Assembly (NCBI GenBank): GCA_020849175.1 | Contig: JADLGR010000302.1 | Span: 1-32,305 of the forward strand | DNA: 32,305 nt | Direction of reading: 5' to 3' | Source: Deltaproteobacteria bacterium | GTDB lineage: Bacteria; Myxococcota_A; UBA9160 | Part shown: piece after piece, positions 200-13,173 of the stretch | Layout of the letters: each line of letters starts with the position of its first letter | How positions within the stretch are numbered: position 1 is the first letter of the stretch | Made by a program: the position numbers and the translations under genes | Notes under the pieces: model-generated | Told to the model about the DNA's origin: nothing | Databases searched by the model: none | The model's input: the letters and a program-made list of their open reading frames with translations, nothing else

Positions 200-224
200 A
201 CGCCCCCCATTCGTGTCGCAGATT

Positions 225-240
225 CTATCGATATCGATAG
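225..240. promoter_or_regulatory. Perfect 16-bp palindrome, candidate operator
   Basis: CTATCGATATCGATAG is its own reverse complement over all 16 bases and lies 60 bp upstream of the LuxR start codon. It is AT-rich in a GC-rich neighbourhood, and it suits a dimeric DNA-binding protein. Which regulator binds is not shown by the sequence; the LuxR-type product next door is the obvious candidate. Confidence 0.45.
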
Positions 241-300
241 CCTCACCGTCGGAGACGAGGAGTAGAATTCGCCTTGCGTGTTCCCGGGAAGGGGTGCTCC

Positions 301-1434
301 ATGACGATCGACGAACTCGTCCCGTCGCTCATCGGATCCATCTACGAGGCCGCGATCGATCTCGATCGGTGGCAAGCAGTGCTTGCCGCCGTGCGGATGG
401 CGTTCGGCGCCGAGTCTGTGCTGCTCTGGCGTCGCACTCCCTCGTCTACGCGAGCGGCCGTCGTCTGCACGGCCGGTCTTCCCGACGGAGTCGATTGGCG
501 GCGCGTCACGGAGTCTTCTGCTTGCAGGGCGCGTCTGCGCGCGTACGAGTCTCTGACAGCGCTCGAGGCTGACGAGATCGGAGCGCTCCTTCCGCTCGGA
601 GAGCGTCCCTTCGAGGAGCTGCCCACCGCATGGCGCGAGCGCCATGAGACCGAGCGTGGCCTCGTCGTCACGTTGATCCGTGAGCCGGGCCATGCGGCGC
701 TCATCGAGATGGTGCGCCTGCGCGGTGCTTCTCCCTTCGCTGAGAGAGACTGGGATCTCGCTCGTGCCGTGGCGCCTCACCTCGCTCGTGCGATCGTGAT
801 CGAGCGCGATCGCGAACGGAGTCGGATCCGGAGCGCCGCAGCGGCAGCCCTCGGAGAGCGCCTCCCGATGGGGGTGATCCTGGTCGACGCGGACGCCGCG
901 TTGATCGACTGCAGCCGGCGCGCGAACGAGATTCTCGAAGAGGGAGATGGCCTCTACTGCGATTCGGGTCGTCTCTCGACGGCGAACCGCTCGGAGTGTC
1001 GGCGTCTCCACGAGGCGATCCACTGGGCGGTGGGAGAGGCGCGCGGCGCAGCGACCTCCGAGACGTTCTCACTCTCGGTCGAGAGACGATCGGGTCGATC
1101 GCCACTCCTCGTCGAGGTCGCGGGGGTCACCGGAGGAGCGGCGCATGGTGATCTTCTCGAGTCCCAGGCGCTCGTCTACGTGAAGGATCCCGACCGTGGC
1201 GCTGGCATCTCGACCGATGCGCTGCGCAGGGCCTTCGGTCTCACGCGAACCGAAGCCGAGGTCACGGCCCGAATAGCGACGGGGCTGAATCATGCGGAGG
1301 TGGCACAGGCGCTCGGCGTCACGGTCTGCGCGATCCGCTTCCATCTGAAGAGCATCTACGCGAAGACGGCAACGCAGCGGCAGGCGGAGCTCGTCTACCT
1401 GCTCGCGAGCGATTCCGAGCGGCTCGCCGGGTAG
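301..1434 (+). CDS. LuxR-type HTH transcriptional regulator with GAF/PAS-like sensor region
   Basis: Predicted cytoplasmic regulator of 377 residues. The C-terminal ~60 residues carry a LuxR/GerE helix-turn-helix (LTRTEAEVTARIATGLNHAEVAQALGV, then AIRFHLKSIYAKT). The N-terminal ~180 residues look like a GAF-type sensor fold and the middle (around MGVILVDADAALIDCSRRAN) is PAS-like; these two assignments are by pattern only. The ORF track opens at 274, but the ATG at 301 is preferred because GGAAGGGG precedes it at good spacing. The cobalamin-binding-fold gene begins 3 bp after the stop, so the two are probably co-transcribed and functionally linked. There is no receiver domain, so control is more likely by ligand or by the partner protein than by phosphorylation. 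The upstream region holds four inverted repeats. Confidence 0.85.
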   Translation: MTIDELVPSLIGSIYEAAIDLDRWQAVLAAVRMAFGAESVLLWRRTPSSTRAAVVCTAGLPDGVDWRRVTESSACRARLRAYESLTALEADEIGALLPLGERPFEELPTAWRERHETERGLVVTLIREPGHAALIEMVRLRGASPFAERDWDLARAVAPHLARAIVIERDRERSRIRSAAAAALGERLPMGVILVDADAALIDCSRRANEILEEGDGLYCDSGRLSTANRSECRRLHEAIHWAVGEARGAATSETFSLSVERRSGRSPLLVEVAGVTGGAAHGDLLESQALVYVKDPDRGAGISTDALRRAFGLTRTEAEVTARIATGLNHAEVAQALGVTVCAIRFHLKSIYAKTATQRQAELVYLLASDSERLAG

Positions 1435-1437
1435 GGC

Positions 1438-2085
1438 GTGGGGCGCGGTGTGCGCCGCCCGTGGACCGCGGCGGCCGCGGCGCTGCGCTCCACGCTCGAG
1501 GCGTATGATGCCGCAGCGGCGCGCGACGTCTTCGACGGCCTTTCCCACTGGCATGGCATCGACGTGGTGGCGGTCGAGATCCTGCCACTGCTCCTGCGTC
1601 GCCTCGCCGAAGAGCGGCCCGAGACGAGCCGGGAGCACGCGGCCCGATGCGAGTTCGTCCGCGGGGTACTCGAGGAATGCCTGTTTCGGGTAGCGCGTGG
1701 TTGGGCGGAGGGGGACGGCCCACGAGCGGTCCTGAGCGCGGCCTCCGGTCTCCCGCGTGAGTTCGAGGCAATCGGCTTCGGCCTCGCGCTCCGGCGTCGT
1801 GGCTGGAGGATCATCTACCTCGGGACGGAGGCGCCGATCGAGACGCTACGGCTGGCCATCGAGCAGCTACGGCCGCGTCTGGCGGTGGTAGGTCTCTCGG
1901 AAGGCGATCGGTACGGGCACCACGACGCGACCGCGCTGCGGCGGCTCGCGATCCGCGTTCGGCTCGCACTCCTCGGCGCGAGTGCCGAGTTCGCAGCGTC
2001 GATCGGCGCCACGGCTCTCGGTCCCGATCTGATCGCCGAGGCGCGGCGAATCTCGGTGGACGCCGTGGAGCCGCTCCGACACTGA
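1438..2085 (+). CDS. Cobalamin-binding-fold protein lacking the DxHxxG histidine
   Basis: A 215-residue protein with the layout of stand-alone B12-binding modules. A helical cap (about 10-95) contains an EH pair (E66-H67) placed like the EH motif of CarH-type photoreceptors. A Rossmann-like part follows (about 96-210) with LRRRGWRIIYLGTEAP, the usual strand and loop of B12-binding domains. In the family the loop before this strand carries E/DxHxxG, whose His ligates cobalt from below; here it reads EFEAIG, with Glu at the His position (E110). The cap Trp of CarH is also not evident. It may bind cobalamin base-on, bind another tetrapyrrole, or be a degenerate sensor. The GTG start lies 3 bp after the LuxR stop, suggesting translational coupling and a joint sensor-regulator role (inference). 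Confidence 0.7.
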   Translation: MGRGVRRPWTAAAAALRSTLEAYDAAAARDVFDGLSHWHGIDVVAVEILPLLLRRLAEERPETSREHAARCEFVRGVLEECLFRVARGWAEGDGPRAVLSAASGLPREFEAIGFGLALRRRGWRIIYLGTEAPIETLRLAIEQLRPRLAVVGLSEGDRYGHHDATALRRLAIRVRLALLGASAEFAASIGATALGPDLIAEARRISVDAVEPLRH

Positions 2086-2107: not shown

Positions 2108-3283
2108 CTACGGCGCCACCCGCGTCTGGCACGCGTCTCCGATCCCGTCGGCGTCGGCGTCGGCCTGCTCGGGGTTCCACCAGCCGGGGCACAGATCGGC
2201 CGGGTCCTCGACGCCGTCGCAGTCGGGGTCGGGTGCGTCGCACGCGAGCGCCACGGTGGCCCACACGGGGCGGTGATCCGAGAGCGCGTCGCAGCGCGCC
2301 CCCGGGCAGATACCCGGCGCGAGGGTCTTCACACCGCGCGCGTAGAGAAGGTCGATCACGAGTGCGATTTGGTCGATGGCCGTCGTTCGCTCGGCGAGGG
2401 AGAGCGCTGCGTGCGCATCGCGAAAGCCCGCCTCGCGGAAAGCCTGCATGTTCTGGTCTTCGAAGCCGCCATGGATTGCGAAGACCATCTCGTAGGTGTT
2501 CAGGTCGCCGCCCACCACGACCGGCCAGAAGACGCTCTTCGCGTCGTCGAGGATCTCGCGGACCTGCGCGTCGCGCACGGCGAGGGGCGGGTTCGATTCG
2601 AGGTGCGCGGCGTACACGCGGAGCAGATGGTCTGCGATCCGGATGTCCGCCGCGATCGCAACGCGGCCTCCGAGACGGGGCTCGTCGGGGTTCGGATGAC
2701 CCACCGGCGTGTACCAGCTCCGGTTCTGCGCGAAGCGGATCTGACGAACGTTCGCGAGTGGCCAGCGCGAGACGATGGCGTTGCCGTGCTCGCACAGAGG
2801 CGGATCGTACGGACCCGTCTCGCCCCGGTCTCCTGGCAGCTCGACGAACTCGGTCGCGTAGACGTAGTAGCCGCCGAAGGCCTGCGCGTAGTCCCGCGCC
2901 ACGTTGCGGAACTGCGTGCGGCGGCAGCCGCGATCGACTTCCGAGAGCAGCAGCACGTCGGGCACGGGAACGGCCGGGTCGTGCAGCAGCAGATCGAGCT
3001 GCGCGTCTTGCCCGAACCCGCGCTCGATGTTGTAGGCGAGAACCACGATCTCGCGCTTCGGAGCGGGAGGAGTCGTCGCGAACGAGTCCCCCTCGATCGT
3101 GCAGTGGACGAAGGTCGTGTCGGCCGCGTGATCGGGATCGGCCGCCTCGTCGCACAGGCGCTCGGTACGAACGTCCGGCGCGCGCCCCTGCCACTCGAAC
3201 TCTCGGAAGCACCCCGCGAGCGCGAGGCTCCCGGCGAGAGCGCATACGGTCGTGACGAGAGCGGATCGGAGGGGGGGCCGCAC
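2108..3283 (-). CDS. Lipoprotein endonuclease/exonuclease/phosphatase-family enzyme with thrombospondin type 3 segment
   Basis: About 391 residues. The start is taken as the GTG at 3283, which follows AGGAGA and opens a lipoprotein signal (hydrophobic stretch ending LAGC); the ORF track's earlier start adds 31 non-homologous residues and an avoidable antiporter overlap. Endonuclease/exonuclease/phosphatase (EEP) motifs appear in order: VLAYNIERG, LLLSEVDRG (metal-binding Glu), GNAIVSRWPL, GGDLNTYE (Asp-x-Asn) and a C-terminal SDHRPVWA. Substrates of the family are phosphodiesters, in DNA, sphingolipids or inositol phosphates. The last ~40 residues are Asp-rich with DPDCDGVEDPADLCP and DADADGIGDAC, typical of calcium-binding thrombospondin type 3 repeats, consistent with a surface or periplasmic location. 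The exact substrate cannot be told. It lies downstream of the antiporter gene on the same strand. Confidence 0.85.
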   Translation of the reverse strand: MRPPLRSALVTTVCALAGSLALAGCFREFEWQGRAPDVRTERLCDEAADPDHAADTTFVHCTIEGDSFATTPPAPKREIVVLAYNIERGFGQDAQLDLLLHDPAVPVPDVLLLSEVDRGCRRTQFRNVARDYAQAFGGYYVYATEFVELPGDRGETGPYDPPLCEHGNAIVSRWPLANVRQIRFAQNRSWYTPVGHPNPDEPRLGGRVAIAADIRIADHLLRVYAAHLESNPPLAVRDAQVREILDDAKSVFWPVVVGGDLNTYEMVFAIHGGFEDQNMQAFREAGFRDAHAALSLAERTTAIDQIALVIDLLYARGVKTLAPGICPGARCDALSDHRPVWATVALACDAPDPDCDGVEDPADLCPGWWNPEQADADADGIGDACQTRVAP

Positions 3284-3368
3284 GGCATCTCCTGGCGCAG
3301 CCGCTCCAGCGTACAGCATGCGGAGTCCTGCGCCCGTGCGCCGCGCGGCCCCGGCAGAGGACCGGCAG

Positions 3369-5423
3369 CTACGCAACCCCCCGCTTGTGAACGATCAGCA
3401 TCGAGGCCGGGCACTCGCTCGCGAGGCGCTCATGGCTCGTACCGAGATACGTCGGCTGCAAGCCCAGCTCCTCCGAGACGCCGATCACGACGAGGTCGTA
3501 TCCGCTCCGCGCCTCTTCGACCACGGTCTCGATCGGCTCCTGGCTCATCACCATCCGCACCGTGATCGCGGAGGAGTCGGCGAGGTCTTCGAGCGAGAGA
3601 CCGGGGGGCGCGGGCGGCGGTGCCGGCGTCGGGCGTACGACGTGGAGCACGGTGAGCTCGACGTCTTCCTGCGCGGCGATGCGCCGCGCGAGATCGAGAG
3701 CGCCGAGATCGTGCGCCGATCCGAGATAGGGAACGAGCACGCGGCGCCACGGGCGAAAGTGTCGCGGCAGATATACGGCCACGTCGGAACGCGCCGTCGT
3801 CATCACGTCGTAGATCGTCCCCGAGAGAATGCTCTGGCGCAGGACGGGCTTGTGCCAGCCCATGAGAAGAAGATCGGCGCGCTTGGCGTACGCCACCTCG
3901 ACGATGTCCCGCCCGATGTTCTGGCTCATGAACGTGAGCGGACGCACGTTCGTCCCCTGATCGGCCGCAGCCGCCAGCAGCGGCTGGAGCGTCTCGCTCT
4001 CGGCAGGACGGGTGAGCCGGCCTGGATCGAGCATCGCCTGGTCGGCCGCCGGGAGCAGGTGCAGCGCATAGATGCGGTCGCGGTCCGACGGGGCGAGACT
4101 CGCCGCCATTCGCAGCAGCTCGGGCCCCGCCGACGGGAGCGCCACGGGAACGAGCACCGTGAAGGCCTTGACGTCCTCCGGCACACCGAGCGCTTCTTCA
4201 CGGATCCGTCGCGCAGGATGGATCCACTCGACCAGTGGCGAGGTCATGAACGTCGTCACCAGCGCCATCAGCACCATCATCGTGAAGAGCGCGGGCGAGA
4301 TGACGCCGATTTCGAGGCCCACCGTGAGGAACACGAGCTGGATGAGACCGCGCGTGTTCATGAGGGCACCCAGGGCACTGGCCTCGCGCCATCCGAGTCC
4401 CGTGAGGCGCGCTGCGAGCGCGGAGCCGCCGAACTTTCCGATCACGGCGGCAAGGATGATGAGCGCGCAAGCGATCCACATCTCGGCGCCGCTCACGAGA
4501 CCAAGGCTCGTTCGAAGTCCGGTGACGGCGAAGAACAGCGGCAGCAGGAAGACGACCGTCACGTCGTGCAGCTTCTCTCCGAGCTCGTGAACGAAGCCCG
4601 AGTCCTTCGGCAGAATCGAGCCGAGGACGAACGCGCCGAACAGAGCATGGATGCCGAGCCACTCGGTCGCGTACGCCGAGAGTGCGAGCGCGACGAGGAC
4701 GATCGCGAGCATGTCCTGCGTGAGTCGCCCGCGGCTGTGGTAGTAGGCCTCGAGCCGGCGAAGCGCCGGCCGTGCGGCGTAGATCATTGCCAACACGTAG
4801 ACCGCAGATCCGACGAGCGTGAAGACGAGCGGCTGATCCCCGGCCTCGCTGCGAACGAGCGCGACGACGGCGGCGAGGATCACCCACGCCGTCACGTCGT
4901 CGATCGCAGCGCAGGCGATCGTCATGACGCCAAGGCGCGTTCGCAGCAGGTTGCGCTCGGCGAGAATGCGGGCCAGGACGGGGAAGGCCGTCACCGACAT
5001 CGCGGCGCCCATGAAGAGCGCGAACTCGTCGAAGCGTACGCTGCGGTCCGAGAGGCGCGGGTACAGATGCAGGGCGAGCAGTGCGCCGAGCAAGAACGGT
5101 ACCGCGATGCTCGCGTGACTGGTGACGATCGCAGCCCGCCCGCGGTTTCGAAGCAGCCTGGGATCGAGCTCGAGGCCGACGAGGAACATGAAGAGCAGGA
5201 CGCCAACCTGACTGAGAGGGCCCAGGTTCGCGAGGCTACCGGGTGGGAAGAGCCGGCCCGAGAGCTCGGGCGCCGCCCAGCCGAGCAGCGATGGGCCGAG
5301 CAGGAAGCCCGCCACCATCTCGCCCATGACCTGCGGCTGTCCCATGCGGCGAAAGACGAAGCCGGCAACGCGCGCCGTCGAGAGGATGACGGCGATCTGC
5401 AGCATGAGGATGAGCAGGGACAC
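3369..5423 (-). CDS. CPA2-family cation:proton antiporter with tandem C-terminal USP domains
   Basis: A 684-residue inner-membrane protein. Residues 1-400 form a Kef/CPA2-type antiporter with about 12 hydrophobic segments, including the family pattern GQPQVMGEMVAGFLLGPSLLG near the N terminus and AIDDVTAWVILA mid-membrane, whose Asp pair fits the ion-binding site. Residues ~405-540 and ~550-684 look like two universal-stress-protein domains (for example ADLLLMGWHKPV in the first, YDLVVIGVSEELG in the second) that would face the cytoplasm and bind nucleotide or regulate transport. No TrkA-N domain is present, unlike KefB/KefC. The transported ion (K+ or Na+) is not determinable. The start is MSLLILMLQ at 5423, 12 bp after the small anchored protein gene, so the two are probably one transcript. 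Confidence 0.9.
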   Translation of the reverse strand: MSLLILMLQIAVILSTARVAGFVFRRMGQPQVMGEMVAGFLLGPSLLGWAAPELSGRLFPPGSLANLGPLSQVGVLLFMFLVGLELDPRLLRNRGRAAIVTSHASIAVPFLLGALLALHLYPRLSDRSVRFDEFALFMGAAMSVTAFPVLARILAERNLLRTRLGVMTIACAAIDDVTAWVILAAVVALVRSEAGDQPLVFTLVGSAVYVLAMIYAARPALRRLEAYYHSRGRLTQDMLAIVLVALALSAYATEWLGIHALFGAFVLGSILPKDSGFVHELGEKLHDVTVVFLLPLFFAVTGLRTSLGLVSGAEMWIACALIILAAVIGKFGGSALAARLTGLGWREASALGALMNTRGLIQLVFLTVGLEIGVISPALFTMMVLMALVTTFMTSPLVEWIHPARRIREEALGVPEDVKAFTVLVPVALPSAGPELLRMAASLAPSDRDRIYALHLLPAADQAMLDPGRLTRPAESETLQPLLAAAADQGTNVRPLTFMSQNIGRDIVEVAYAKRADLLLMGWHKPVLRQSILSGTIYDVMTTARSDVAVYLPRHFRPWRRVLVPYLGSAHDLGALDLARRIAAQEDVELTVLHVVRPTPAPPPAPPGLSLEDLADSSAITVRMVMSQEPIETVVEEARSGYDLVVIGVSEELGLQPTYLGTSHERLASECPASMLIVHKRGVA

Positions 5424-5435
5424 GCGCCGTCGCCC

Positions 5436-5903
5436 TCAGCGATCGCCCGAGACGCGCTCGGCGCGGAACGAGACCGGCGCGCACGCGGCGCAGCCTCCGG
5501 CCCAGAGCTGGCCGGCGAGCTGTGCGACGCGTCCGTCCATGATGAAGTCCGCTGCGAGCTCGAGCGGGGCCTGCGGACACGCCGCTCGTGCGGTGCCGAG
5601 CATCGGAAGGCTCGCGGCGCGGCCCCACAGGCGCGTTCCCCGAAGGATCGCCTCGAGCCGCGTTCGCGCGGGATCATTGAGCGTCACGTCCGCGTGCACA
5701 CCCGACTGCTCGACGTCGAAGGCCGGTGCGTCGGGGGCCAGCTCGACGCACGGCGGGACGAGCTGGGCTGCGGGAGCGATCTCTGCGCGCCACACGCCGC
5801 CGATGTCCGGCGGCGCTCCGAGGCGGCCTCCGAGCCGCAGGATTCCCACGACGCCCAGCACAGGAAGCCCGACGAGGACGAGGTAGAGCAGGACGATTTT
5901 CAT
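5436..5903 (-). CDS. Small membrane-anchored protein of unknown function beside the antiporter
   Basis: 155 residues starting at MKIVLLYLVLVGLP; the ORF track's TTG start at 5933 adds ten polar residues before the hydrophobic segment and is less likely. One N-terminal membrane segment (about residues 3-24) precedes a periplasmic-looking domain with GGVWRAEIAP, a VPPCVEL segment and a CAACAP motif near the C terminus. The four or so cysteines could form disulfides outside the cytoplasm. I do not recognise the family. It ends 12 bp before the antiporter start on the same strand, so an accessory role in ion transport is possible but is inference from position only. Confidence 0.65.
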   Translation of the reverse strand: MKIVLLYLVLVGLPVLGVVGILRLGGRLGAPPDIGGVWRAEIAPAAQLVPPCVELAPDAPAFDVEQSGVHADVTLNDPARTRLEAILRGTRLWGRAASLPMLGTARAACPQAPLELAADFIMDGRVAQLAGQLWAGGCAACAPVSFRAERVSGDR

Positions 5904-12477: not shown

Positions 12478-13173
12478 CTACGCGCTCGCCCGCTTGCGTC
12501 CCATGAGCGCGAGGCCGGCGAGGCCGAGGCTCATGAGCGCCATGGTTTCCGACTCCGGCACGACGGTCGTCGAGAGCGACACGAAGCCGTAGTCGTTGTT
12601 CCGGTAGCTCGCCGGCATGTCGGGGCCGATCGGCGAGAGCGTGATCGCCGTCACCGCAGCGCTGCCGAACGGATCGGCGATGCTCCACACGCCGCCCATG
12701 CCGAAGGTGCCCGGCGAGACGTTCGACACCGTGCCGGCGCCCGTCCACGCGGCCGTGGTGCCACTCGTCACCGCGAGCACGTAGCTCGTGCTCGAGCCGT
12801 CTGCGAAGGTCGCCGTCACCAGCGCCTGCTCGTCGTAGACGTCGTCCTCTTCGAACGCGGCGTAGAGCTTGCCGAGGCTGAGATCGGTCACGATCTGCGC
12901 CTCGGTGAACGCGAACGTGATCGACTCGGGGCCCGAGAGGTCGATTTCGCCGAACTCGTAGCCGCTGAAGATGCCGACCGAGTCGTATCCGCCCGAGACC
13001 TTGTGAATGAACTCGCCGCCTCCGGCCGTCGCGGTGGCGTAGCCGAGGTCGACGAAGGTCGTGAACGACGCAATGTCGGTGGTGTCGATCGTGAACGCGC
13101 CGGCGGTCACGGGAGCGAGAGACAGGCCGAGCGCGGCGCACAGAGACAGGAGCAGCGACCGGGAGCGGGGCAT
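12478..13173 (-). CDS. PEP-CTERM exported protein
   Basis: 231 residues. An N-terminal signal peptide (MPRSRSLLLSLCAALGLSLAPVTAGA) precedes a beta-rich, Ser/Thr/Gly-rich domain with few charged lysines. The C terminus is a tripartite sorting signal: VPESETMAL, a hydrophobic helix, then the basic tail GRKRASA. The canonical motif is VPEP, and here the second Pro is Ser. In this system exosortase cleaves the tail and the protein is released to, or anchored at, the cell surface, often with exopolysaccharide and biofilm matrix; no exosortase is in the window. The start is preceded by GAAGGAAG. Upstream lies a well-matched sigma-54 promoter and downstream a strong terminator, so it is a monocistronic, specially regulated unit. 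Confidence 0.85.
   Translation of the reverse strand: MPRSRSLLLSLCAALGLSLAPVTAGAFTIDTTDIASFTTFVDLGYATATAGGGEFIHKVSGGYDSVGIFSGYEFGEIDLSGPESITFAFTEAQIVTDLSLGKLYAAFEEDDVYDEQALVTATFADGSSTSYVLAVTSGTTAAWTGAGTVSNVSPGTFGMGGVWSIADPFGSAAVTAITLSPIGPDMPASYRNNDYGFVSLSTTVVPESETMALMSLGLAGLALMGRKRASA

Follow-up and report, generated by a model that had tools for sequence, protein, structure and literature searches.

Two adjacent genes of an uncultured myxobacterium, one for a LuxR/NarL-type regulator (gene A, positions 301-1434, + strand) and one for a stand-alone protein of the CarH cobalamin-binding-module family whose cobalamin motifs are lost (gene B, positions 1438-2085, + strand), form a real and conserved pair that is restricted to a single uncultured myxobacterial genus. 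Taken together, our analysis makes it somewhat probable that the pair is a two-gene regulatory unit in which gene B serves as a B12-free protein partner of the LuxR protein, that is, as a co-regulator or anti-repressor. As such, the pair is a modest variant of a known layout, in which a B12-fold partner is encoded beside a regulator. In the window (the whole stretch of 32,305 nucleotides that was analyzed), 3 bp separate the two genes; the first-pass annotation had reported a LuxR gene and a separate B12-fold-type gene at this distance, and the gene calls, the GerE domain and the CarH matches bear this out. Gene A encodes 377 amino acids, is preceded by a probable ribosome-binding site (GGAAGGGG, at about 286-294) and ends in a C-terminal GerE helix-turn-helix (HTH) at residues 314-365, which passes the Pfam gathering score (E 1e-05; 25.5 bits against 23.5). 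GerE is the sole Pfam match in gene A, and the sensor-like N-terminal region falls into no Pfam family. The GAF/PAS-like regions previously proposed for this protein thus find no counterpart in Pfam; a PAS-like strand pattern is seen only in a low-confidence AlphaFold model (mean pLDDT 42).

Kinship of gene B to the CarH module

Gene B starts with GTG and encodes a protein of 215 amino acids that is related by sequence to a module of a four-helix cap and a Rossmann domain. Several comparisons connect it to CarH: (i) the NCBIfam CarH model matches it with an E value of 1.3e-10 and 41 bits, far below the 400-bit equivalog cut-off; (ii) the CarH chains of Thermus thermophilus appear among its PDB sequence matches at about 2e-4, CarH and methionine synthase being the only B12 proteins there; (iii) profile-profile alignment (hhalign) with eight CarH proteins extends over 170 columns with a probability of 98.9% and an E value of 3.7e-17; and (iv) an in-house CarH profile scores it at 65 bits. 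The score of gene B for the B12-binding Pfam family lies below that family's cut-off, no MerR DNA-binding domain is matched in its 215 residues, and no solved SCHIC or AerR chain is found among its PDB sequence matches. In a maximum-likelihood tree, gene B forms a long branch joining a MerR-fused CarH protein with intact motifs (L074; support 97/92), although the sampling is skewed towards gene B-like sequences, so that the tree gives descent from the CarH family and not the exact sister. An AlphaFold model built from two sequences is of low confidence (mean pLDDT 50); a PDB fold search with it yielded no significant match overall (best E 0.19), with a stretch of about 78 columns superposing on CarH chains at an rmsd of 3.0 (probability 0.95, E 1.5). 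As judged from sequence, these data show that gene B descends from the CarH family, and the earlier proposal of a CarH-type cap plus Rossmann module stands at the level of homology, on the strength of the NCBIfam, PDB and hhalign matches. Compared with CarH/LitR, whose chains are its nearest solved structures by sequence and whose cap and Rossmann module it matches over about 170 columns, gene B differs in that it has no MerR domain, has lost both the Wx9EH and the E/DxHxxG motif and is paired with a LuxR protein.

The loss of these motifs can be followed column by column. Around the axial motif, the alignment runs without gaps from strand GPRAVL through strand RIIYLG, and its register is set by the strand and the helix on either side (GPRAVLSAASGLPREFEAIGFGLALRRRGWRIIYLG versus GPRALLACAPGEQHELGLIAFGAVLHRRGWRIAYLG). 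In this register, the remnant of the lower axial motif E/DxHxxG (positions 1750-1767, + strand) corresponds to residues 105-110, LPREFE, with Leu105 in place of Glu, Arg107 in place of His and Glu110 in place of Gly, and all three replacements are identical in the relative of gene B from G001, the second genome of the genus. The remnant of Wx9EH (positions 1618-1653, + strand) spans residues 61-72, with Trp replaced by Pro61, Glu by Cys71 and His by Glu72; the same columns hold Ser, Arg and Glu in the G001 relative. Among 41 CarH-type domains, by comparison, these columns hold Trp in 41, Glu in 40 and His in 41, and the axial columns hold Glu or Asp in 41, His in 39 (Tyr in the other 2) and Gly in 34. 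All six scored cobalamin motif columns therefore differ in both gene B homologs: at the sequence level, the whole scored cobalamin site is gone, not one ligand.

Two details of the first-pass annotation change with this register. It had placed a Glu at the position of the axial His, which requires a slip of three residues, the column itself holding Arg107; and it had assigned gene B an EH pair of the CarH type. The visible EH (residues 66-67) is displaced by five residues from the EH columns of CarH in the profile-profile alignment, where the true columns are C71-E72, and reads IH in the relative. One profile-to-sequence alignment did match both EH dipeptides, at the cost of deleting 4 residues and inserting 5 in the cap, whereas the G001 relative was aligned to the same profile without either. 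With six motif columns replaced, classical His-ligated sensing of B12 or light by gene B is unlikely.

Conservation of the pair and its upstream block

A whole-genome search identified one close relative of gene B, in G001 (record CAJPFO01, Myxococcaceae bacterium), which was also returned by a scan of 84,980 species that is sensitive to close relatives only. There, the LuxR gene again adjoins the gene B homolog, at a distance of 6 bp, and the proteins of the two species are about 80% identical for both genes (79% for the LuxR protein). The flanks differ: in the window, the pair is followed on its 3' side by an endonuclease/exonuclease/phosphatase-family gene and then a Na/H exchanger, whereas in G001 it lies among genes with PEP-CTERM-like ends and a sulfatase. 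The first of these window genes (2108-3376) bears a weak match to a thrombospondin type 3 repeat near its C-terminus, and further along the window (12478-13173) a protein has at its C-terminus a tail that looks like a PEP-CTERM sorting signal; genes around the pair in L006 encode similar tails. The first-pass annotation had made conservation of the pair in relatives one of its checks, and the pair was indeed found in one second species, so that the co-occurrence of the two genes rests on one comparison between two genomes.

Outside the genus, G002, the remaining genome of the family, gave no match to gene B. Profile searches covering 80 genomes from the order and 379 from the phylum returned no further stand-alone relative of this kind; those hits that were inspected proved to be CarH-type proteins with a fused MerR or HTH domain, metabolic corrinoid proteins or weak matches. 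A plasmid search gave no match to gene B, and viral contigs supplied nothing usable as extra sequences for its alignment. LuxR relatives of gene A, on the other hand, occur in 33 of the 80 genomes of the order, and in the scanned loci none of them has a gene-B-like neighbor except the copies in the genus. One LuxR homolog, in G041, lies about 1 kb from a canonical corrinoid protein; it was rejected as a further pair, since it belongs to a different, metabolic-looking cluster. At locus L037, a LuxR relative of gene A (2845-4065) precedes a canonical stand-alone corrinoid protein (5077-5724, with the motif DIHDLG) by about 1 kb, and the neighboring genes resemble 2-hydroxyacyl-CoA dehydratase subunits, an enoyl-CoA hydratase and an old-yellow-enzyme-like protein.

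Both genes are under purifying selection, with dN/dS values of 0.25 for gene B and 0.28 for gene A in the two-species comparison. Within gene B, residues 85-125 carry 17 synonymous and 2 nonsynonymous changes, while the rest of the protein has 55 and 58 (p 0.0009 in a Fisher test, to be read in the light of this stretch having been picked after inspection). The remodeled axial motif falls within this stretch, where constraint on the protein is strongest, which points to a role that has been maintained and not to decay.

Conservation extends upstream of the operon to a block at positions 213-272 (+ strand), a putative operator or promoter. Its part from 224 to 272, which holds CTATYGATATYGATAG, is identical between the window and G001 at 42 of 49 positions and thus as conserved as coding DNA, compared to about 32-60% identity over positions 1-200. 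At 225-240, CTATCGATATCGATAG contains a direct repeat of TATYGA and is a perfect palindrome in the window; two C-to-T differences between the species leave the 6-bp direct repeat intact and disrupt the palindrome. A regulon search with this 16-mer, allowing up to two mismatches, found it at the operon and nowhere else in either genome, and because it is otherwise absent the repeat may be an operator of the A-B operon. An Rfam search found no riboswitch, and searches for a sigma-70-type promoter and an intrinsic terminator were likewise negative. The occurrence of the pair in a second species, the different flanks, the purifying selection and the conserved upstream block all speak for the two-protein regulatory unit that had been proposed.

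Role of gene B and alternative explanations

A precedent for such a unit is AerR/PpaA, a separate B12-fold subunit that is encoded beside the PAS-HTH regulator CrtJ/PpsR and acts on that regulator (PMC9144470, PMC10734443); it is overlooked in the earlier view that the module of known B12 photoreceptors is fused to a MerR domain. Gene B is likewise a stand-alone gene of the B12-fold family adjoining a separate HTH regulator. AerR, however, keeps its axial His (His145) and binds cobalamin, whereas gene B has Arg107 in the His column as defined on the CarH family alignment, outside which AerR itself lies; and CrtJ regulates photosystem genes and is of the PAS type, whereas gene A is of the LuxR/GerE type. 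Loss of the cobalamin motif also has a precedent in HP1 (Rru_A0625) of Rhodospirillum rubrum, a PpaA/AerR-like protein that has lost the motif and still affects transcription (PMC10734443). HP1 resembles gene B in being encoded beside a regulator, and differs in having PpsR as its partner in a photosynthesis cluster, in being shorter and in belonging to a separate lineage. Given AerR/PpaA and HP1, a separate B12-fold subunit is less novel than first stated. Within the CarH family, CarA of Myxococcus xanthus is a CarH paralog that works without B12 (PMC9304148); like gene B it has lost the Trp of Wx9EH, although it retains the MerR domain, the B12-binding motif and the EH pair.

The layout of AerR/PpaA, the motif loss of HP1 and the B12 independence of CarA together make a B12-free co-regulator the likeliest role of gene B. 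In the mechanism that we propose, a CarH-type module that has shed its MerR domain and its cobalamin site would bind the LuxR protein and alter its DNA binding, as AerR/PpaA does with CrtJ/PpsR; the signal would be read either by the N-terminal part of gene A or by the remodeled pocket of gene B; and the pair would control its own operon through the repeat at 225-240, with the use of this operator and the direction of regulation both conjectural. As a guess, a salt bridge between Glu72 and Arg107 could shut an empty pocket. Evidence against the partner role comes from the LuxR-family members of the order that stand without a gene-B-like neighbor, which indicates that the family of gene A can in general do without such a partner.

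Other readings of gene B have to be set against this one. The replaced residues Glu72, Arg107 and Glu110 would suit a polar or charged ligand, and the axial loop and helix that carry part of them are strongly constrained, with the new residues identical in both homologs; gene B might thus bind another small molecule in its remodeled pocket and relay the signal to the LuxR protein. We regard this as unlikely, since neither sequence nor gene context nor structure indicates a ligand and a protein-interaction surface explains the constraint equally well. The most novel idea, a new kind of two-subunit sensor in which a CarH-derived module without DNA-binding domain or cobalamin site gained a new ligand or ligand-free switching and became the input subunit of a LuxR regulator, is similarly doubtful. 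That the two genes are mere neighbors and gene B a decaying remnant would fit its confinement to one genus and the loss of conserved cobalamin residues, but the dN/dS of gene B, its intact frame in two species and the persistence of the pair amid differing flanking genes make this quite improbable.

The first-pass annotation had suggested a possible sensor of light, B12, redox state or another tetrapyrrole, and the substitution of every scored CarH ligand-motif position weighs against a sensor of B12, light or a tetrapyrrole. Continued cobalamin binding, for example base-on and without a protein His, with the pair sensing B12 or light, is very improbable: the homology to CarH and the ordinary B12-binding domains encoded in both genomes of the genus speak for it, and against it stand the replacement of the Trp, Glu and His of Wx9EH and of the axial Glu, His and Gly, with Arg and Glu where His and Gly belong. 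Nor does either genome encode a photosynthetic reaction centre (Photo_RC), and the phytoene/squalene synthase-family genes sit as adjacent pairs that may be hopanoid genes. Least credible is a sensor of heme or another tetrapyrrole in the manner of AppA, whose SCHIC domain has the B12 fold and ligates heme with a His that sits two residues from the one used for B12 (PMC9144470). The parallel lies in a B12 fold with altered ligand use, in the action of SCHIC on PpsR and in the conservation of H37, H67, H162 and C81 in both gene B homologs; the stretch between residues 68 and 160 of gene B, however, lacks a His, so that the shifted heme ligand of SCHIC has no counterpart near that position, and the PDB sequence matches likewise fail to point to SCHIC or AerR.

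Genus context and meaning

Neither genome of the genus contains a CarH protein above the NCBIfam cut-off, a threshold that none of the 14 control genomes reached either. The genus does encode a second CarH-type regulator (L068/L105 on contig C291 of G000; L104 on contig C33 of G001), in which an HTH_17/MerR-like domain is fused to the B12 cap and Rossmann domains, Wx9EH is intact and the axial His is replaced by Tyr (DPYLLA). This replacement hints that classical B12 sensing has been lost in the genus while ordinary B12-binding domains remain.

If gene B is indeed a B12-free partner of the LuxR protein, the AerR/CrtJ layout would extend to LuxR proteins, and the genus would represent a second lineage, besides that of HP1, whose B12-fold partner has lost the cobalamin motif. 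The reuse of the B12 fold as a pure protein-interaction module would then become testable.
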